The notes under the pieces were generated by a model. The model was not told the DNA's origin and made no database searches. It worked only from the letters and a program-made list of their open reading frames with translations. From positions 1 to 7,550 of the forward strand of contig JAJXYI010000102.1 in assembly GCA_021780625.1 (NCBI GenBank): 7,550 nt of DNA, in the 5' to 3' direction. This document shows positions 1-7,550 of this stretch, piece by piece (the stretch's first letter is position 1; the number at the start of each line of letters is the position of its first letter). The DNA is from a bacterium (GTDB lineage: Bacteria > Verrucomicrobiota > Verrucomicrobiae > Opitutales > Opitutaceae). The position numbers were made by a program, and so were the translations under genes.

Positions 1-280
1 CCTGTGCCGCGAGGCGGGCCTGATGGAATTCGAACAGGTCGATGTCTACGATATCACCAACGGCAACCGCTTTACCACCTACGTGATCTACGGAGGACCG
101 GGACAGATTCAGATCAACGGAGCCGCGGCCCACTTAGCCAAACCCGGCGATCTGGTCATCATCGCCGCCTACGCACACTTGAGCGCGGAAGAGATTCCAG
201 GTCATCGCGCACTCGTGGTCCAGGTTGACGGCATGAACCGGCCAGCGTCGCGCAAGGAACAGGCCGTCCGAAAGCCCTGA
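1..280 (+). CDS. panD: Aspartate 1-decarboxylase, C-terminal part (5' end outside window)
   Basis: PanD is a cytoplasmic pyruvoyl enzyme that converts L-aspartate to beta-alanine and CO2 for pantothenate and coenzyme A synthesis. The reading frame enters at base 2 and gives about 92 residues. They match the family closely: the stretch NGNRFTTYVIYG corresponds to the E. coli region holding the active-site tyrosine (Tyr58), and INGAAAH holds the conserved Asn72-Gly-Ala-Ala segment. PGDLVIIAAYAHL then matches the last core strands. The family is about 126 residues long, so roughly the first 33 residues are missing here, including the Gly-Ser self-cleavage site that makes the pyruvoyl group. Autoprocessing therefore cannot be checked. 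The C-terminal tail (MNRPASRKEQAVRKP) is basic and poorly conserved, as is usual. The gene converges on the type IV secretion-like operon, with only 14 nt between the two stop codons. The identification is firm. Confidence 0.95.
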   Translation, partial: LCREAGLMEFEQVDVYDITNGNRFTTYVIYGGPGQIQINGAAAHLAKPGDLVIIAAYAHLSAEEIPGHRALVVQVDGMNRPASRKEQAVRKP

Positions 281-298
281 GGAGACCGATCTTCTCAG
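277..298. terminator. Hairpin across the two convergent stop codons, possible bidirectional terminator
   Basis: Bases 277-285 pair with 290-298 to form a 9-bp stem with one G-U pair and the 4-nt loop CCGA. The panD TGA (278-280) and the complement of the facing gene's TGA (295-297) form part of opposite arms. The stem is perfect apart from the wobble and sits exactly where both transcription units end. No strong T-tract follows on either strand, so it is not a canonical intrinsic terminator. It could still slow polymerase or protect the 3' ends of both messages. No other terminator candidate was seen in the junction. Confidence 0.4.
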
Positions 299-1401
299 CC
301 CGCCTTGCCCGCCGAGCCAACCCAGCGCGCCCCCGCCGACGTGAGCCCGTGGGCCACCACCGGCACAAGCACCAGGGTCAGCAACATCCAGCCGCATAAG
401 ACGACCGTGATCGCCGTCATCTCGACGATGAGCGCCCACGACAGATGCGGCGCAGCCTGAGCCAGCGTCCTGACCGTACCAGCCGGCATTTCCGGATAGA
501 GCGCTGCGTGCGCCGTCTTTCCCATGATGTCGACAGCCGCCCGCATCATGGCAAGCGACGCCGTATTCAGAGCCGACCAGCCTGTCGGCCATAGAGACAC
601 CCCTAGGAGCCCGATCATGCACCGGAGGCCGATGCCGCGCAGCGACTCCGAACCGAGCCCCGCCAACACCAATGGCATCAGGGCAAAACCGGCATGAAAC
701 AGCACCCAACGGACCGCTTCAGCCAGATAGAACCCCGACTGCGTGACCTGTGCGACGAACTCGACGCTGAGGATGATACGCTGAACCAGCCCCGCTCGCT
801 CGACCGAAGTGGCGACCGACCACGTTTGCTCGGCAGGTGTGGATGCCGCAAACACAGGCGGCTTGGCCCAATTCCAGCCCTTCCCCAGCCATTGTTCCTC
901 GCGGCCATCCCCGGGTTTCCACATCCCGTCCAAACCGTCGGCTGAAGGGCTGGAGGCCAAGGTCCAGTGTTCGAGCACCTGGCCAAACGTCAGCATGAAC
1001 GGGGTCAGCGAAACGGGTCCGTCCGCAGGCACGGTTTCCAGCGGCGGAACCGAGACGGCGCGATTTCCCATGGCGTCCGCAATTGCATCGCCGGTCTCGG
1101 CAACCAAGGTGCGCCAGAGCGGGACAGTTGAGATGAAACCCACGATCAGAATCATCGATGCGATGTGCTCCAAATTCGCCCCTCCGCGGCGCATGCGTGC
1201 CAAAAGCCCACCGATCACGAGCATCACGGAGGCCGCCTGGGAGAACAGCAGGATGCGCTCACCGATGTCACCCAACTCGAGCGCGACACGCACGGGGTGA
1301 AACACGTAACCGACGTCCCGCATCCGGGCTTCGTCAGGCGCCCCCAGCGCCAGACACTGGAACGCGATCGCCGCCAGAATCCAACGCATGCCCGATCTCA
1401 T
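295..1401 (-). CDS. Polytopic inner-membrane protein, VirB6/TrbL-like
   Basis: This 368-residue membrane protein is the last gene of the operon. It has a hydrophobic, signal-like N-terminus (residues 6-20) and membrane segments near 50-69, 80-98, 228-248, 258-285 and 320-349. A long polar loop runs from about 101 to 205 and is rich in tryptophan (W146, W161, W171, W176, W178, W194). The C-terminal half, with LMPLVLAGLG (241-250), the arginine pair before CMIGLLGVSLWPTGW (261-275) and a following small-residue helix, resembles the helical core of VirB6/TrbL proteins. Those proteins form part of the inner-membrane channel of type IV secretion systems. Its position as the gene after a VirB5/TrbJ-like gene fits TrbL. 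The ATG at 1401 has a GGAG (complement of 1410-1413) 8 nt upstream; Met5 is an alternative start. The family call rests on topology, short motifs and context, since VirB6 proteins diverge quickly. A generic membrane protein cannot be excluded. Confidence 0.65.
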   Translation of the reverse strand: MRSGMRWILAAIAFQCLALGAPDEARMRDVGYVFHPVRVALELGDIGERILLFSQAASVMLVIGGLLARMRRGGANLEHIASMILIVGFISTVPLWRTLVAETGDAIADAMGNRAVSVPPLETVPADGPVSLTPFMLTFGQVLEHWTLASSPSADGLDGMWKPGDGREEQWLGKGWNWAKPPVFAASTPAEQTWSVATSVERAGLVQRIILSVEFVAQVTQSGFYLAEAVRWVLFHAGFALMPLVLAGLGSESLRGIGLRCMIGLLGVSLWPTGWSALNTASLAMMRAAVDIMGKTAHAALYPEMPAGTVRTLAQAAPHLSWALIVEMTAITVVLCGWMLLTLVLVPVVAHGLTSAGARWVGSAGKAG

Positions 1402-1418: not shown

Positions 1419-2234
1419 CTAATGGTTTTCACCCTGCTGGGCATGCAGGGAGGTGAGGGCCCTGGCCCGCAATTTCTCCACGAACGTATCCGCCCACTCC
1501 AAATCCGCCTCCCGCTTCCGTTCCGTCTCAATGCGAAGTCGGGCTCCCAAGGATTCGCTATCGCCCCGTGCCTGCTCGGACATCTGACGGGTGACCTCGA
1601 GGCGCTGCTGGGAGGCTGCGATAGCCGCGTCGACCGCGTCGATTTCAGTTTGGGTCGTGGCGCGCTTCAGTCGTTCGAGCAACCTTTTCTGAGTCTCCAT
1701 TTCCTTCTTCGCAACGAGGCCCTGGTTTTCCAACGCCTGCATTCGCCGCTCAAGGAGACCTTCCTCGCGGGCCAGGGAGGCGAATCGAGCCGAGTTTCGC
1801 GAGTATTGGTCACCCAGGACCTGATAGGATGAATCGACGGTGTTGACCTTCGAAAATGGCGCCGTCTTGTCGGCCCCGACCGCATAGTCTTTCAGCCCCT
1901 GCCTCATCGACTCCTGCCTGGACTGCAGCGCTACCGCCGCCTCAGCGGGCTCAGTCACCCGCGCAACATCACCCGCCACAACCGAAGCCGGCGCCCCCGG
2001 GTTACCCATCCGTTCGACGAGAAGCTTAGTCTGTTCAAGTTCCTGCCTCAGCAGCGTCTGGACCTCCTCCCACTCGGTCTTCTCACGTGTCCATTTGACG
2101 CCGTCCATCTGATCCGCGGCGATAATCACCACATCTCCGACTCCACCTATCGCATGACACGGCGCGATGGCAGCCACGGCGAGCGTCGCCAGGCTGACCG
2201 CGCGAATCCGACGTAAGACAATCGATGTTTTCAT
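1419..2234 (-). CDS. Exported coiled-coil protein, VirB5/TrbJ-like
   Basis: This 271-residue protein has a clear Sec signal peptide: basic MKTSIVLRRIR, a hydrophobic stretch at 12-24 and a likely cleavage after APCHA (residue 28). The mature N-terminus carries GGVGDVVIIAADQMDG, followed by a charged helical region (48-77). The region from about 145 to 260 is almost wholly helical with coiled-coil character, dense in Glu, Arg, Lys and Leu. It includes an Ala-rich helix near 199-210 and a run EQARGDSESLGARL. This layout of signal peptide, short beginning and long helical bundle, together with its place directly before the VirB6/TrbL-like gene, fits VirB5/TrbJ. Those are minor pilus-tip or periplasmic components of type IV secretion systems. 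The gaps to its neighbours are 15 and 17 nt. No good Shine-Dalgarno precedes the ATG, so translation may depend on the upstream gene. The sequence match is weak and the assignment rests on architecture and synteny. Confidence 0.6.
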   Translation of the reverse strand: MKTSIVLRRIRAVSLATLAVAAIAPCHAIGGVGDVVIIAADQMDGVKWTREKTEWEEVQTLLRQELEQTKLLVERMGNPGAPASVVAGDVARVTEPAEAAVALQSRQESMRQGLKDYAVGADKTAPFSKVNTVDSSYQVLGDQYSRNSARFASLAREEGLLERRMQALENQGLVAKKEMETQKRLLERLKRATTQTEIDAVDAAIAASQQRLEVTRQMSEQARGDSESLGARLRIETERKREADLEWADTFVEKLRARALTSLHAQQGENH

Positions 2235-2249
2235 GGGAAATGCGCCGCA

Positions 2250-2735
2250 TCACTCGACGACGCGAATCGCGAGCTGACCGGGTTCTGTGTTGCCACCCTC
2301 CGTTGGAATTACCGGGGCTGGAAGAAGGTAGGTCCGGAAACGCCCCTCCGACCGCTCTTCCAATGGACGCTTTTCCAAGGCGTGTCGCAGAAAATACTGG
2401 CGCTTGATCGCATCGCTCTGGCCTTGGACATAACCTTGGTCAAATCCCTCCTGCCGCACAGCCTTGTCCGGGCCGAGCGCGAGATGCGTGAGGGTGGCCC
2501 CTGCAATCGCGCCGGCCGCGGTAGCGCGGGCATCGCCGTCGCCCAGCTCATGCCCGCCCAACGCACCCGCCGCGGTGCCTGCGCCCACCCAGGCGGCGCG
2601 CTTCGCCGTACTGTCGACCTGCGTGCAACCTCCACTCGCAATGGCGACGGTGACGATTGCCATCGCGACCACCAGGTGCTCCACGGCCGCGCCCAGCCAC
2701 TCCCTACACTCGAATTTTAACTGGTCCGCATTCAT
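2250..2735 (-). CDS. Small membrane-anchored or lipoprotein-like glycine-zipper protein
   Basis: This is a 161-residue protein. One hydrophobic segment (about 14-35, rich in Ala, Val and Ile) ends in ASGGC with Cys37, which suggests a lipoprotein signal. However, the residue at -3 is Ser rather than Leu, Val or Ile, and the N-terminal stretch MNADQLKFECREW is acidic, so lipidation is doubtful. A second start at Met25 would give a shorter, still imperfect signal. Residues 47-88 form a glycine-zipper-like region (AAWVGAGTAAGALGGHELG, then DGDARATAAGAIAG) of the type found in small envelope proteins that insert in or oligomerise at membranes. The remainder is polar and charged, with a possible helix near 100-120. 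The ATG overlaps the ATPase stop as ATGA (2735-2732), implying translational coupling. By position it could play the part of the small TrbK or VirB7 lipoproteins, but I see no specific match to either. Confidence 0.6.
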   Translation of the reverse strand: MNADQLKFECREWLGAAVEHLVVAMAIVTVAIASGGCTQVDSTAKRAAWVGAGTAAGALGGHELGDGDARATAAGAIAGATLTHLALGPDKAVRQEGFDQGYVQGQSDAIKRQYFLRHALEKRPLEERSEGRFRTYLLPAPVIPTEGGNTEPGQLAIRVVE

Positions 2736-5533
2736 AAGCTCGCCCCCGCGGCGACCGCAGTTTCATTGCGCGTTTTCGGCTTGGCCGCCTCGCGGCACAC
2801 TCCCTCCACCGGATCCGCGTAGCCCGCGAGAGCCTTTGTCCGCTCGTCAAAACAGGCTCCACTGGAATCGGCGACGTAAAGCATCTCCGGGGTGACCCGA
2901 TTGCGCACCACACCACACGAACACCCTTCGCCCTCGACCGAAAAGACGGCCATCTGGGAGAAACGGTCATCGCCGTTTTGATATTCAGGCGCCGTGAATG
3001 TGCGGACCGCATTCCTCGCCGCCGCAGGCAGTCCGATCGCATCGCCAATCTCGTCGAGATCCTTTCGGTCATTTTGGCGAAAGAGAAAATACTGCTTCGA
3101 ATTTCCAAAGATCACGGGCCGCAGCGCACTTCGCGCGAGCTGGCCGTACTGCTGCGTCACGGGAAGAATGTGACATCCGAACTTCCCCATCTGCGCATAG
3201 AACTCCGCGAGCAGCTCCTCCATCCCTCCCACCTGAAGGTAGCGGGAGGGCTCTTCGAAGATGAACTGCTTTCGCAGAGCCCGGGGCAGCGTGATGATCC
3301 GCTGCCGGAGGCGGTTCGCCACCAGGAACACCGCCGCCTCCTTCATCTCCACATTGGCCGAAGGCAGAAGACCGAATTCAAAGTGAATCAGGCGGCTGTC
3401 CAGGCGGCGATTCGTGTGACCGTCGAACAGGCGTCCATGCGGTCCGCCCCGTTGCCAGACGCTCAACTGCGACGCCAGACGGTCGACCGCTTCCTTGGAA
3501 TGGTGCGGCAGGCGGTTGTATTTGAGAGACTCCACGAGGGACAGGTGCGTCGGGAAGTCCGCGGCGCCAAGCAGCGAGAATCCAACGTCGCGCACCGCCG
3601 CCGCCGACTCCGGCCTCCTCGCGTGGGCGATCGCTTCCGACTCCCCTATCGACGATATCGTCTCGCGGATTCTTCCCTCGTTCGATCCCAGCTGCTCGCG
3701 AAGATCGGCAAAGAGTTCGAGCGGAGCGACCACCGCCGTGCCGGACTGGGCTTCGCGCCGCATTCGCTCGAGAACGATGGCCAGGCGGGCCGCCTCGACT
3801 TCCCGCTCGGGATGGCGAAGACGGACGTCGCTCCACGTGTCGATGTACAGCTGCTCCAGATACTCGCCCAGCATCGCCTTTCGCTGCTGGTTGGCCGCCG
3901 GGTCCGCCCCTCTGCCGGCCATCACGAGCAAGAGGCCCGCGGCCGAGCCCACCTGGAGCCGCGTGAGCGGAAGGCCCTGTGTATCCATATAGTTGATAAC
4001 CAAGTCTCCATCCGGATGCAGGATGATCGACTCGCCCCCAAGCAGCCGCACCAGCGTGCCATAGGACAATCCCTCCTCGATGATGCCGCGAAACGCGAAG
4101 AAACAGTCGGTCTGGGAAAGGTAATCGATGGTCTGACTCGACTTACCGACTCTGGTTGTACCGATCATCACCGCGTGCTGGGGAGTGCCGCCGGCATAGG
4201 TGCGGATGCCGACGAGGTTTCCCGCCTCTCCATCGTACAATGCCTCACCCGCCTCGGGATGTCCGAGATAGGAACTCGAAAGTGGAATGAGATCCTGGAG
4301 AAAACAGACCGAAGGATCCCGCCCAGCCAGGGCGAAAAGATCCCAGTCACGGTACCTCCCGCCGGTCCACCCGGGCAGCGTCTCGAAGAAGAGGCATTTT
4401 GCCTGTGTCTCATCCTCTACTTGATAGCACTGCGCGCCGCCCATGGCTCCGACGGATTCCTTGAGAGCCTGCACCTTGGCCATGAGGCCGGTAAGAGTCA
4501 GATCCCACGCGCGGATCACCGGCAGGACGCCAAACGGCCGCGCAAACCCGCCCTGCAACGCCGAGATCCTGGCCTTCTTCCGCGCCATCACGTCGTCCAA
4601 CGAGGCCTTGTCCTCATTCCTTCGACTGCCCTGCAGTCTGCGCAGCTCATCCTCCGTCTTCCTCACTTCAGCCGTCGCGTCGAGCGGGTAACAGTTCAGC
4701 GTGAGACAATAGTCACCCGCAAGAGCCGAGGTGAGCGCCCAGATGATCCCGAAATGAGTCTCCATCGGCCAACGACGAAGGACCAGGAGCGTGTGATAGT
4801 GGCCGTCGAGGCGAAAGAAGACATTGCCCTCCGCATCCCGGGTGGAGACTCCACCGCCCGGCCAGCAATTTTCCAGGATCGTCCCCCGCGGGTTGAATCC
4901 CGATGAGGCACCTGCACCGGCAGCCCTACGACTCGGCTGACAAAACGCCCTCCACGCCGAAAAATGACTTCGATCGGTCATCATCTCCATCCGGGCGCCG
5001 GGCAGGCGGCCGGCCAGTTGAAGACAGCGGTCCGAGAAATTCTTTGCGTTCTGCTCCAGGTACCGGTCGATCTGATCGCGCGACCGAAAGCCCGCCCCGG
5101 GAACCGATGTGCATCGACGCGCCAGATACATGTCCAAGCGCTCCCGCCGCAGGCGCCCCTCGTGCTGAAGGCGACGATAACGCTCGTGCCGTTCCTCCCG
5201 AACCCTGGCGCACCACCCACGCGCACCAGCCTCCGTCGTCCTCCTGCCATACTGCTCCAGTTCCGCATGATAGTCGGAATCGACCCGCCACTGAAACTGC
5301 ACTGCCTCATCCGGCGCGAGCTGGCAGAAGAAGGTGCCAAAGGCGTCGTAATAGTCGTCGCGCGTGCCTTCGTCGGCAGCCTTCAGGTCCGGAAGGTCGA
5401 GATGCGCGCCGCGCGCGAGCACGGTCGACGGTTTCAGCGCGTCGTCGAACCAGAGCAGGTCCCCCTCGAACCAGCCATCGGGGGGTCTCGTCTCGATCAA
5501 CGCGCGCAGCGCGCAAAGCCAGTGTGCACTCAC
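2732..5533 (-). CDS. virB4: Type IV secretion ATPase, VirB4/TrbE family
   Basis: This 933-residue protein is the predicted motor of the system: a cytoplasmic, membrane-associated ATPase that powers pilus assembly and substrate transfer. The N-terminal half (about 60-390) corresponds to the CagE/TrbE/VirB domain. It is followed by Walker A GTTRVGKS (458-465) and the VirB4-typical block IIEEGLSYGTLVRLLGG (484-500). Next come VINYMDT (512-518), where the family usually has iNPfd, then GRLFDG (700-705), a Walker B region QFIFEEPSRYL (756-766) and VTQQ (792-795). The last is followed by a segment around FGNSKQYFLF (809-818). The Walker B aspartate is replaced by Glu760. At 933 residues it is longer than VirB4 of Agrobacterium (789) or TrbE of RP4 (852). 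The start codon is GTG at 5533, supported by GGAGG 6 nt upstream. It overlaps the upstream gene's stop (GTGA) and its own stop overlaps the next ATG (ATGA). The family assignment is firm; the substrate is unknown. Confidence 0.9.
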   Translation of the reverse strand: MSAHWLCALRALIETRPPDGWFEGDLLWFDDALKPSTVLARGAHLDLPDLKAADEGTRDDYYDAFGTFFCQLAPDEAVQFQWRVDSDYHAELEQYGRRTTEAGARGWCARVREERHERYRRLQHEGRLRRERLDMYLARRCTSVPGAGFRSRDQIDRYLEQNAKNFSDRCLQLAGRLPGARMEMMTDRSHFSAWRAFCQPSRRAAGAGASSGFNPRGTILENCWPGGGVSTRDAEGNVFFRLDGHYHTLLVLRRWPMETHFGIIWALTSALAGDYCLTLNCYPLDATAEVRKTEDELRRLQGSRRNEDKASLDDVMARKKARISALQGGFARPFGVLPVIRAWDLTLTGLMAKVQALKESVGAMGGAQCYQVEDETQAKCLFFETLPGWTGGRYRDWDLFALAGRDPSVCFLQDLIPLSSSYLGHPEAGEALYDGEAGNLVGIRTYAGGTPQHAVMIGTTRVGKSSQTIDYLSQTDCFFAFRGIIEEGLSYGTLVRLLGGESIILHPDGDLVINYMDTQGLPLTRLQVGSAAGLLLVMAGRGADPAANQQRKAMLGEYLEQLYIDTWSDVRLRHPEREVEAARLAIVLERMRREAQSGTAVVAPLELFADLREQLGSNEGRIRETISSIGESEAIAHARRPESAAAVRDVGFSLLGAADFPTHLSLVESLKYNRLPHHSKEAVDRLASQLSVWQRGGPHGRLFDGHTNRRLDSRLIHFEFGLLPSANVEMKEAAVFLVANRLRQRIITLPRALRKQFIFEEPSRYLQVGGMEELLAEFYAQMGKFGCHILPVTQQYGQLARSALRPVIFGNSKQYFLFRQNDRKDLDEIGDAIGLPAAARNAVRTFTAPEYQNGDDRFSQMAVFSVEGEGCSCGVVRNRVTPEMLYVADSSGACFDERTKALAGYADPVEGVCREAAKPKTRNETAVAAGASL

Positions 5534-5901
5534 GGCCTGCCTCCAAAGACACCCCGCGGATTCGCCCGCCAGGGCCTGGGATGTGACGACCGGGAACGCA
5601 GCGTTCTACCAAGATCAAAATGGCGGCCAACGATCAGGCCCTCAAAGAAGTCGCCGACGTAATGAGGTGGCCGGCCTATGACGAAAATCTTAACCCACGC
5701 GGTTGATACGACCAGGGGCAACGATGTGACGCAAACTCTGGTCGGGAAGGCCAGGGCCGCAGCGAGAATGAAAACCAGGATCGCGATCACCGCCCCGGCC
5801 ACAACGAACAGATAAGCTTCGCCTTCGAGCTCCCAGCGACCAAATCGCACCACGCCCTTTGAGTCGGGGCCGCTATGGGTGCGCGTGGTTCTTGCAGCCA
5901 T
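5530..5901 (-). CDS. Small bitopic or hairpin membrane protein, VirB3/TrbD-like
   Basis: This 123-residue protein has a polar, basic N-terminus, then two membrane segments (about 29-52 and 57-75). The motif GRPPHYVGDFFEGLIVGR (76-93) and a basic tail follow. Short proteins with a hydrophobic pair followed by a proline-containing amphipathic stretch, encoded directly before virB4, are typical of VirB3/TrbD. That protein binds VirB4 at the inner membrane and is sometimes fused to it. Here the two genes are coupled by a GTGA overlap (5533-5530), and the ATPase Shine-Dalgarno lies inside this gene. The ATG at 5901 lacks a Shine-Dalgarno on its strand. A GTG at 5853 (Val17), preceded by AAAGGGC, is a plausible alternative start that would remove the weakly conserved N-terminus. 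Gene order supports the call more strongly than sequence does. Confidence 0.65.
   Translation of the reverse strand: MAARTTRTHSGPDSKGVVRFGRWELEGEAYLFVVAGAVIAILVFILAAALAFPTRVCVTSLPLVVSTAWVKIFVIGRPPHYVGDFFEGLIVGRHFDLGRTLRSRSSHPRPWRANPRGVFGGRP
5540..5544 (-). promoter_or_regulatory. Shine-Dalgarno deciding the GTG start of the VirB4-type ATPase
   Basis: On the - strand this reads GGAGG and stands 6 nt before the GTG at 5533, which is ideal spacing. It lies within the 3' end of the VirB3-like coding region. Together with the GTGA stop/start overlap, it supports the GTG over any downstream ATG as the ATPase start. Confidence 0.75.
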
Positions 5902-5919: not shown

Positions 5920-6441
5920 TCAAAGCAGCTTGAGCCCCAGGGCATCCCAGAACCCCGACAGGTTGAGGGCAAAAATCGCAAGCCACGGTGCCGCCGCGAT
6001 GGCCACACCGGAAAATATCTTCCGCTTGCCGTCCTCCCCGTGCTCGAGCATCGCGGCACCGTTGACGCACTTCGCTACGCACCACAGCGCGGCGATCCCG
6101 ATCACCGCCCAGGTGGCGAGCTGGACAACATCGATGAGCTGGTCGGGCAGTTTCACAACGCCCGACGGGACCAGCGACAGATCCAAAGTTTTCCATAGTC
6201 CGGTTGCCTCGAAGGCTGCGACCGCCAGCCAGGGTGCCATTCCAACCGCGATGCCGGCATAGATCTTCTTTTTTCCCTGTTCGCCGCGATCCAACATATC
6301 GGCGCCCTGGATGCACTTGATGACACAGAACACCGCCGAGGCGGCGATGATCACCAGCAATCCATAGGAGAAGTTGTCCTTTACCTTCGGAGGCAGCGAA
6401 AAGGCTGCGAGGGGGAGAGATAGCAGGAATTCGGGGTTCAT
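5920..6441 (-). CDS. Tandemly duplicated VirB2/TrbC-like pilin-type membrane protein
   Basis: This 173-residue protein is the first gene of the operon and consists of two homologous units. Residues 37-91 align without gaps to 119-173 at an offset of 82 residues, with 27 of 55 positions identical by my count. Each unit has a membrane helix ending in CVxKCxxG, a charged turn (MLDRGEQGKKKI and MLEHGEDGKRKI) and a second helix around GxAxxxAPWLA. The unit closes with GxW and a leucine-rich end. Two hydrophobic helices joined by a short basic turn is the VirB2/TrbC pilin topology. Position directly before virB3-like and virB4 genes is where virB2/trbC belongs. Normal pilins have one such unit after a long cleaved leader. 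Here two are fused and the leader is short (about 25 residues, not a clear signal peptide). A non-pilin four-helix channel component is the main alternative. No strong Shine-Dalgarno precedes the ATG. Confidence 0.65.
   Translation of the reverse strand: MNPEFLLSLPLAAFSLPPKVKDNFSYGLLVIIAASAVFCVIKCIQGADMLDRGEQGKKKIYAGIAVGMAPWLAVAAFEATGLWKTLDLSLVPSGVVKLPDQLIDVVQLATWAVIGIAALWCVAKCVNGAAMLEHGEDGKRKIFSGVAIAAAPWLAIFALNLSGFWDALGLKLL
5980..6333 (-). repeat. Internal gene duplication within the pilin-like gene
   Basis: Two copies encode residues 37-91 (about bases 6333-6169) and 119-173 (about 6087-5923), separated by a linker of 27 residues (92-118). The offset is 246 bases. Conservation is at protein level, about half the residues. 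This indicates an old duplication kept under selection rather than a recent copying event. The second copy extends a little beyond the lower coordinate given, to the stop codon. Confidence 0.8.
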
Positions 6442-6453
6442 GGCTTCGACATT

Positions 6454-6481
6454 AAAAAGGTAAAATCTATTTTACTTTTTT
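6454..6481. promoter_or_regulatory. AT-rich near-perfect palindrome, candidate operator
   Basis: The core GTAAAATCTATTTTAC (6460-6475) is a perfect 7-bp inverted repeat around CT. Beyond one G/T position, a run of five A bases and a run of T bases continue the symmetry, giving 28 nt in all. It sits 18 nt upstream of the start codon of the pilin-like gene, in the only strongly AT-rich stretch of the region. It may also lie upstream of the nadA promoter. A dimeric repressor site covering the operon promoter is the simplest reading. It could also form an RNA hairpin, but the lack of GC argues against a terminator. I could not place convincing -35/-10 hexamers for either direction. Confidence 0.45.
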
Positions 6482-6560: not shown

Positions 6561-6605
6561 TTGCAGCGTTGGCGAGTCGGGCAACGTTTCTCTGCTCTGG
6601 TATGA
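6561..6605 (+). CDS. Possible 14-codon leader ORF coupled to nadA
   Basis: Starting with TTG 9 nt after the strong Shine-Dalgarno, the frame reads MQRWRVGQRFSALV and stops at TGA 6603-6605. That stop overlaps the nadA start as ATGA (6602-6605). The arrangement would let ribosomes finishing the leader restart on nadA, which has no Shine-Dalgarno of its own. The peptide is not recognised and contains no run of one amino acid that would suggest attenuation. The TTG start and short length make this a speculative gene. Confidence 0.25.
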   Translation: MQRWRVGQRFSALV

Positions 6606-7550
6606 ACTTTACCGCCCACGAAATTGAAGCGGAGGCCGATCGGCTGCTCCGCGCGCTCATGCACGTGGAATGCGACGCACGCCGCACCTGGAACCTGGAT
6701 ACCTGCCGGGAGCTGGCTCCGCTGACCCTCGAAATCCAGCGTTTGAAACGCGAAAAGGGCGCCATCATCCTCGCCCACTCCTACGTCGAGCCGGAAATCA
6801 TTTATGGTGTGGCCGACTTCAAGGGTGACTCCTACTTCCTCAGCCTTCAGGCGAAGAAGGCACAGGCTCCGATGATCGTCTTTTCGGGCGTGGTCTTCAT
6901 GGCCGAGACGGCCAAGATCCTCTGCCCTGACGCCACGGTGGTCGTGCCGGACCGGGGCTCGGGTTGCTCACTGGCTGATTCGATCACGGCCGAGCACCTC
7001 CGCCGGCTCAAGGCCCTGTACCCTGACGCAGCTGTGGTGTGCTACATCAACAGCACGGCGGCCGTTAAGGCCGAATGCGACGTCTGCGTCACCTCCGGGA
7101 ATGTCTACGACATCATCTGCAGGCTCCCGCAGAAGCGCATCCTTTTTGTCCCGGACCGCCTGATGGCGGAAAACATCCGTGCCGAACTGAAGCGACGGGG
7201 CGTCGACAAGGAAATCCTTTCCTCGGATGGCACCTGCATGGTGCACGAGGAGTTTACTCCGGCGCAGATCACCGAGGCCCGCGAGCGTTTTCCCGGGCTG
7301 AAGGTGGTCGTGCATCCCGAGTGCACGGCGGAAGTCGCCGCCGCGGCGGATTTCGTCGGCAGCACGGGCGCGATGATGAAATACGTTCGCTCGACCCAGG
7401 CGCCGTATTTCCTCATGCTTACCGAATGCGGCCTGGTTGGGCGTCTCGAGGTCGAGAATCCCGAAAAGGCCTTCGTCGGCGGATGCCGTCTGTGCCCATA
7501 CATGAAACTCAACTCGCTCGAGAAGATCCGCGATGTCCTGGCTTCACCGC
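6602..7550 (+). CDS. nadA: Quinolinate synthase, N-terminal and central part (3' end outside window)
   Basis: NadA is a cytoplasmic [4Fe-4S] enzyme that condenses iminoaspartate with dihydroxyacetone phosphate to quinolinate in de novo NAD synthesis. About 316 residues are visible. Family signatures in order are AHSYVEPEI (58-66), DFKGDS (72-77), MAETAKIL (100-107), the first cluster cysteine in GSGCSLADS (Cys122), CYINSTAAVKAECD (147-160) and GTCMVHEEF (210-218). They continue with HPEC (Cys241), VGSTGAMMKY (252-261) and CRLCPYMKLNSLEKI (295-309). Cys298 corresponds to the third cluster ligand. All three ligands are therefore present and the enzyme should be functional. The ORF is open at the window edge with only the C-terminal end missing. 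The ATG at 6602 lacks a nearby Shine-Dalgarno. The 49 or so residues before the catalytic core form a plausible helical extension, and an internal start such as Met20 cannot be ruled out. Confidence 0.95.
   Translation, partial: MNFTAHEIEAEADRLLRALMHVECDARRTWNLDTCRELAPLTLEIQRLKREKGAIILAHSYVEPEIIYGVADFKGDSYFLSLQAKKAQAPMIVFSGVVFMAETAKILCPDATVVVPDRGSGCSLADSITAEHLRRLKALYPDAAVVCYINSTAAVKAECDVCVTSGNVYDIICRLPQKRILFVPDRLMAENIRAELKRRGVDKEILSSDGTCMVHEEFTPAQITEARERFPGLKVVVHPECTAEVAAAADFVGSTGAMMKYVRSTQAPYFLMLTECGLVGRLEVENPEKAFVGGCRLCPYMKLNSLEKIRDVLASP

Follow-up and report, generated by a model that had tools for sequence, protein, structure and literature searches.

A tandem protein of two pilin-like units at the head of a VirB-like operon in Opitutaceae

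The window considered here, a stretch of 7,550 nucleotides from an Opitutaceae contig, contains a gene whose product consists of two similar halves. A preliminary description, made from the sequence, had read it as a fusion of two VirB2/TrbC-like pilin units. Conjugative pili are described, in the available text of PMC12624023, as helical fibers with five-fold symmetry that are built from a single kind of small subunit, VirB2 with a lipid, and the locus raises the question of what a chain with two such units is and what it could build. We consider it probable (roughly 0.65) that the protein joins two VirB2-type pilins covalently and belongs to a type IV secretion system that appears to be chromosomal and split.

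The internal repeat and its operon

The double pilin gene (5920..6441, stop included) is located on the minus strand, runs from an ATG at 6441 to 5920 and encodes 173 residues; the plus strand of the same coordinates has an internal stop. Residues 37-91 and 119-173 align without gaps and are identical at 27 of 55 positions, exactly as the preliminary description states. The local alignment of the halves extends beyond these 55 residues, from an LP at residue 16 and an LP at residue 98, and attains a score of 183. In 2000 plain shuffles the mean score is 27.5 (sd 5.1) and the highest 54; in 2000 shuffles with the hydrophobic/polar pattern preserved, the mean is 31.4 (sd 7.5) and the highest 72. 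The repeat period, counted from the conserved LP, is 82 residues. On the level of DNA the units are identical at 96 of 165 positions over 55 codons, with 43 of 55 second positions alike; the third positions agree in just 21 of 55, hence the duplication is old.

The AlphaFold2 model of the double protein, based on 87 sequences (mean pLDDT 81, pTM 0.68), consists of four helices arranged in two hairpins, in agreement with the four-helix protein that had been predicted. The N-terminal unit (residues 17-91, 6169..6393, minus strand) comprises helices 18-51 and 57-80, the C-terminal unit (residues 98-173, 5923..6150, minus strand) comprises helices 100-133 and 139-161, and the linker corresponds to residues 81-97 (6151..6201, minus strand). 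Each half therefore has a helix-loop-helix structure in the model, and the lysines of both loops are conserved. Each unit also contains a CxxxC motif, formed by C39 and C43 in the N-terminal unit (6313..6327, minus strand) and by C121 and C125 in the C-terminal unit (6067..6081, minus strand).

The gene is the first of six minus-strand genes with intact reading frames between panD and nadA. It is followed by a VirB3-like gene (123 aa, 5530..5901, minus strand), which overlaps the start of the VirB4 gene by 4 bases and whose product matches, by BLASTP (best 5.6e-11), the small protein encoded before VirB4 in 15 of 17 loci with single-unit pilins. The VirB4-like ATPase (933 aa, 2732..5533, minus strand) matches the TraC-F-type (1.3e-16) and VirB4_CagE (1.6e-8) models, both below their curated cut-offs. 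A small lipoprotein-like gene in the VirB7 position (161 aa, 2250..2735, minus strand), likewise overlapping VirB4 by four bases, has weak BLASTP matches (7e-8, 4e-6) to the genes in this position in two loci with single-unit pilins, as well as glycine-zipper matches below cut-off. The next gene (271 aa, 1419..2234, minus strand) is assigned to the VirB5 position by its place alone; its N-terminus resembles a signal peptide by eye, and BLASTP against the VirB5 proteins of single-unit loci gives no match. The last gene encodes a VirB6-like membrane protein (368 aa, 295..1401, minus strand) that matches the VirB6-position gene of locus L031 (8.7e-4), and its counterpart in the double-pilin locus L028 matches the VirB6-position gene of L044 (1.7e-6).

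The flanking genes are on the plus strand, namely panD (1..280, cut by the window start; PF02261, 3.7e-26) and nadA (6569..7550, cut by the window end; PF02445, 1.2e-97), the latter divergent from the double pilin gene. The operon is also found between nadA and panD in genome G002 (L002/L029). In G001 (L001) it adjoins nadA, with the contig end cutting inside VirB4, and in G060 it is located elsewhere, not at nadA-panD. We note that no match of at least three bases to AGGAGG precedes the start of the double in the window (6442-6466), L001, L002 or L028; three of these four loci share a TTTTACC stretch before the ATG.

A protein search with the double gives 93 matches, nearly all of them full-length doubles, whose source names include Opitutus sp. 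ER46 (P0058, identical to the G060 double) and Opitutaceae bacterium. The alignment used here consists of the window and 86 of the 93 matches (87 sequences); P0001, P0027, P0028, P0032, P0085, P0091 and P0093 were left out as near-identical, redundant, short or, in the case of P0093, chimeric-looking. The latter (182 aa) joins a LacI-type helix-turn-helix region to the last part of a pilin C-terminal unit, and its longest contig, possibly chimeric, has 1159 bases. All 87 aligned doubles show the internal repeat, with 44-69% identity (median 55%) over the same 55 residues, so that none lacks the self-alignment whose absence the preliminary description had named as evidence against a double pilin. 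No triple-unit form was seen, as no match exceeds 182 aa despite a permitted length of up to 1.75 times the query, a range that allows three units.

Both units are under purifying selection, the C-terminal unit less tightly. In four pairs drawn from the window and three relatives with DNA, dN is 0.02-0.13 for the N-terminal and 0.05-0.23 for the C-terminal unit (0.07-0.13 and 0.12-0.23, respectively, in the pairs other than that with L001), with dS at about 1 or more, that is, near saturation. For the window and L001 the dN/dS ratio is about 0.015-0.03.

The distribution of close doubles is narrow: among 252 Opitutaceae genomes they occur in three (G001, G002 and G060), with a distant double in G085 and shorter relatives in 13 further genomes. 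Samples of the order (372 genomes) and of the phylum (387 genomes) add no matching genome to those of the family search, and no double pilin was found in viral contigs or in plasmids. The scan of genome contigs for the double gives at least two loci. A restriction of doubles to one clade was considered and rejected: P0135-P0137 form a second, deeper clade, 32-34% identical, with a significant internal repeat and without CxxxC. The fusion may therefore predate the cysteines, or have arisen twice.

Single-unit relatives at the same operon place

Compared to the models of Pfam, NCBIfam and PHROGs, the double protein reaches the curated cut-off of no pilin model. The sub-threshold Pfam matches of the doubles are mixed (PF25044 in 35 of 87, DUF4134 in 20 of 87, T4SS_pilin in 3 of 87), and a sequence search against the PDB gives no useful match. 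Foldseek and VIA-align, applied to the models of the double and of a single unit (the latter with a pLDDT of 70), return only generic helix bundles among the matches listed, with no pilin, a result that speaks neither for nor against a VirB2-like fold. The VirB2/TrbC naming is supported by homology to single-unit pilins, by the place in the operon and by the predicted hairpin shape.

The single-unit pilins of Opitutaceae (L031-L047 and most of L096-L127) are 96-127 residues long, one being called at 168 residues with an early start. They occupy the same operon place as the double: the first 17 of these loci have a VirB3-like neighbour in 15 cases and VirB4 in 16, and the gene order pilin-VirB3-VirB4 is common to doubles and singles. 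L044, the sole single-unit locus checked with Pfam, also encodes a TrwC relaxase, a coupling protein and TrbI/VirB10. A profile comparison of doubles and single-unit pilins (hhalign), with a single-unit alignment that holds no double, gives a probability of 96 and an E-value of 3.4e-9. The match involves both halves: by BLASTP the pilin of L038 matches residues 8-82 (1.2e-4) and 89-151 (6.0e-4) of the window protein, and the pilin of L044 matches the G060 double twice (1.1e-5, 1.4e-4). The commonest Pfam match of the single units is PF04956 (TrbC/VirB2), found for 22 of 45 with a best E-value of 3.4e-4, below the gathering score. When the single units are compared by profile to the TrbC-like pilins of a different VirB4 group, the probability is 1%.

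The earlier reading of the halves as VirB2/TrbC-like units thus stands in so far as both match single-unit pilins encoded at the same place, whereas no curated cut-off is reached. It is highly improbable that the doubles are a membrane family unrelated to VirB2 that adjoins VirB3 and VirB4 by chance. The weak and mixed Pfam matches of the doubles would fit such a family, but the doubles share a profile match with singles at the same place, and these match TrbC most often, albeit below cut-off. The outcome that the preliminary description had named as contrary, both halves falling into an unrelated membrane family, did not occur.

VirB4 is detected at E ≤ 1e-20 in 60 of the 252 family genomes. 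Of 90 VirB4 places, the majority of the short pieces at contig ends and a few second copies were left out; the units were counted at 73 VirB4 loci (window included): 66 carry a single-unit pilin, 4 a double and 3 are unassigned (L119, L144 and L148), while L032 gave no VirB4 match. The unit-counting profile was built from the two halves of the window protein and 13 single-unit pilins, all of which match by construction, as do the source sequences of the two other profiles used in this count. The comparison of relatives that had been proposed therefore yields singles and doubles, with no triple, and none of the 73 loci has two separate pilin ORFs. On the VirB4 tree, which carries a long-branch warning, the four double loci form one clade (support 100) beside a group of eight loci (99), seven of which carry a single-unit pilin of another kind (90-94 aa in the four inspected); the eighth, L144, is cut by a contig end. 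A very conserved two-helix protein of 90-94 aa is found at the pilin place upstream of VirB4 in L137, L139, L140 and L147, some of which adjoin acyltransferase- or glycosyltransferase-like genes (by eye).

Cysteines, linker and divergence of the units

The doubles differ from their single-unit relatives in more than length. CxxxC is present in both units in 80 of 87 doubles, whereas a cysteine anywhere in the last 80 residues is found in just 1 of 47 single units. Bacterial VirB2 usually has a classical signal peptide; a crude rule predicts one for none of the 87 doubles and for 16 of the 47 singles, the latter a rough figure as the cut point is wrong for several (e.g. L102, L104, L115, L125 and L126). 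The 47 singles in both counts are those found with the unit-counting profile only.

The linker of the doubles is nearly constant in length (16-18 residues). This constancy, together with the non-equivalence of the units, would be in line with a precursor that is cut in the linker into two single-unit pilins, giving a heteropolymer from one gene. We regard such a precursor as doubtful: cleavage by a peptidase, which the preliminary description had raised, finds no conserved AxA site, the motif being present in the linker of 1 of 87 doubles, and separate translation of the second unit has no conserved internal start to draw on, with a methionine within aligned residues 86-104 in 17 of 87. The four loci with DNA share no internal ribosome-binding site, although their real starts are without one too; one internal GTG in L028 has a 4-base ribosome-binding match.

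On a tree of the individual units, based on few columns, the C-terminal units lie on one side of a branch (support 100), the singles on one side of another (100), and the N-terminal units form no clade of their own. That the two units undergo concerted evolution, as P0079 and P0068 suggested by eye, was rejected: the identity is 0.466 within proteins and 0.466 between proteins, and 2759 of 5000 permutations are as high as the within-protein value. The lack of excess similarity within proteins indicates two positions that are fixed and evolve apart.

A split apparatus and the assembly of linked pairs

Further components of a secretion system are found apart from the operon in G060 and G001. G060, G001 and G002 each have one VirB4 match of this family, with three candidates scored per genome, and TrbI/VirB10 is found once each in G060 and G001; in the fragmented assembly of G002 neither TrbI nor TrwC gives a match. 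A group of genes for VirB8, VirB9, VirB10 and a lipoprotein is located about 10 kb beyond the operon on the same contig in G060, and on another contig in G001. A relaxase linked to the operon was considered and rejected, as the sole TrwC gene of G060 and of G001 lies elsewhere, near different VirD4-like genes, in G060 adjoining two phage-type integrases. Given these neighbors and the missing linkage, the TrwC genes may belong to separate mobile elements. The system looks like a chromosomal apparatus encoded in modules, without a linked relaxase of its own, in a set of genomes of which G001 and G002 are fragmented assemblies.

The scattered modules of G060 and G001, as well as the distant copy of G085, which is truncated and adjoins a secretin gene, might suggest a decaying, functionless remnant of a conjugative element. 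We consider decay very unlikely in view of the six intact reading frames of the operon, the strong purifying selection on the pilin and the 93 protein matches that are nearly all full-length. The truncated double of G085 belongs to the second clade and directly precedes a 364-aa Secretin (PF00263, E 4.6e-28), the pair being located at 8511-10105 of L030 (G085:C4), minus strand; no VirB3 or VirB4 match was found in the 20 kb examined around it.

Another possibility, to which we give a minor share of probability, is that the double forms no extracellular pilus and instead serves a system for secretion or DNA uptake, in which it builds a fixed inner-membrane ring or channel or a short stub. A precedent for the architecture exists in V-type ATPases, whose proteolipids with four helices derive from ancestors with two. 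The apparent lack of a classical signal peptide, the four nearly invariant cysteines that are absent from nearly all singles, the divergence of the units into fixed non-equivalent positions and the unlinked relaxase in G060 and G001 are all compatible with a ring or channel. Against it, the operon retains VirB3-like, VirB4-like, VirB5-position and VirB6-like genes, the usual set for building a pilus, in which, as the accessible parts of PMC12624023 and PMC12857230 describe, VirB5 makes up the tip and VirB2 subunits are inserted beneath it.

The reading we prefer, a linked pair of VirB2-type pilins, draws on the established duplication, conservation and operon position, on the single-unit homologues at the same place and on the selection acting on both units. 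According to the same two sources, as far as accessible, VirB2 resides in the inner membrane until VirB3 and VirB6 recruit it; VirB4, together with VirB11, then extracts it for addition below the VirB5 tip (PMC12624023, PMC12857230). A linked pair could use this path, since its even number of helices leaves the two hairpins oriented alike. We propose that a mature two-helix unit of the VirB2 family underwent a head-to-tail tandem duplication with fusion, and that the product takes the place of the single-unit pilin in a type IV secretion apparatus. The double would insert into the membrane without a classical signal peptide, with both hairpins in the same orientation, the short linker predicted to be periplasmic and the two lysine-rich loops predicted to be cytoplasmic. 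VirB3 and VirB6 would then recruit it, VirB4 would extract it, and assembly under the VirB5-position protein would give a pilus of linked pairs with two non-equivalent positions. The topology, the formation of a pilus, the pairing within the fiber, any role of the cysteines and the purpose of the system are inferred.

Such a fiber would require an arrangement of its own. As five is odd, a linked pair cannot close a layer of five hairpins; either the pairs connect one layer to another, or each layer contains ten hairpins, or the structure is not a pilus. A more specific version of the proposal, which we put forward tentatively and believe less likely to hold than to fail, is a conjugation apparatus that an Opitutaceae lineage has domesticated as a chromosomal multi-locus machine, a bacterial counterpart of Ced or ComB, with a new kind of conjugative-type pilus of cysteine-stapled hairpin pairs and an order that is not five-fold. 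Its cysteines would have been acquired once the unit had been duplicated, and the fiber would, just as tentatively, be expected to have either linked layers or ten hairpins in each layer.

Comparison with known systems places the double close to VirB2/TrbC/TraA pilins (PF04956), which share the two-helix hairpin with a short basic loop, the gene position directly before VirB3-VirB4, and the VirB5-position and VirB6-like partners. Unlike them, it has two units per chain, a CxxxC per unit, no classical signal peptide by a crude rule and no match to a curated profile. The single-unit pilins of Opitutaceae, homologous by profile and located at the same operon place, differ by their one unit, by a signal peptide in some, and by the near absence of cysteines. 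Several diverged pilin units per system are also known from the VirB2 arrays of Bartonella, Anaplasma and Patescibacteria. In these arrays the units are encoded by separate genes, 2-11 per array in Patescibacteria in the portion of PMC12102498 available, whereas the double fuses its units in a fixed order. The archaeal Ced/Ted DNA import systems and Helicobacter ComB are chromosomal derivatives of type IV secretion systems, as the Opitutaceae apparatus may be; ComB is encoded by two separate operons, and fused pilins do not figure in the available text of PMC9905601 and PMC13395361. The Opitutaceae operon keeps a VirB5-position gene, ComB is without one. The apparent lack of a signal peptide in the double recalls the Ced pilins, which, in the excerpted text of PMC9905601, are apparently secreted unprocessed. 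We found no report of a fused VirB2-type pilin in the open-licence part of PubMed Central, searched mostly by titles and the beginnings of abstracts. A natural fusion offers a direct way to test the packing of pilins, their recruitment and their extraction, and the system is a candidate for a repurposed apparatus in view of its four cysteines, its apparent lack of a classical signal peptide and its genes at separate loci.

We add two minor observations on gene neighborhoods. A ClpB-like AAA ATPase recurs near single- and double-pilin type IV secretion genes, recognized by AAA_2 in L054 (3159-4268) and L029 (1228-2322) and by BLASTP in L044 (7403-8287). The VirB8-VirB10 neighborhoods of G060 (L054) and G001 (L056) hold a weak Secretin_N match beside these genes (L054, 8360-9757, E 0.017; L056, 8711-10030, E 0.073), as well as a 192-aa protein of unknown kind.
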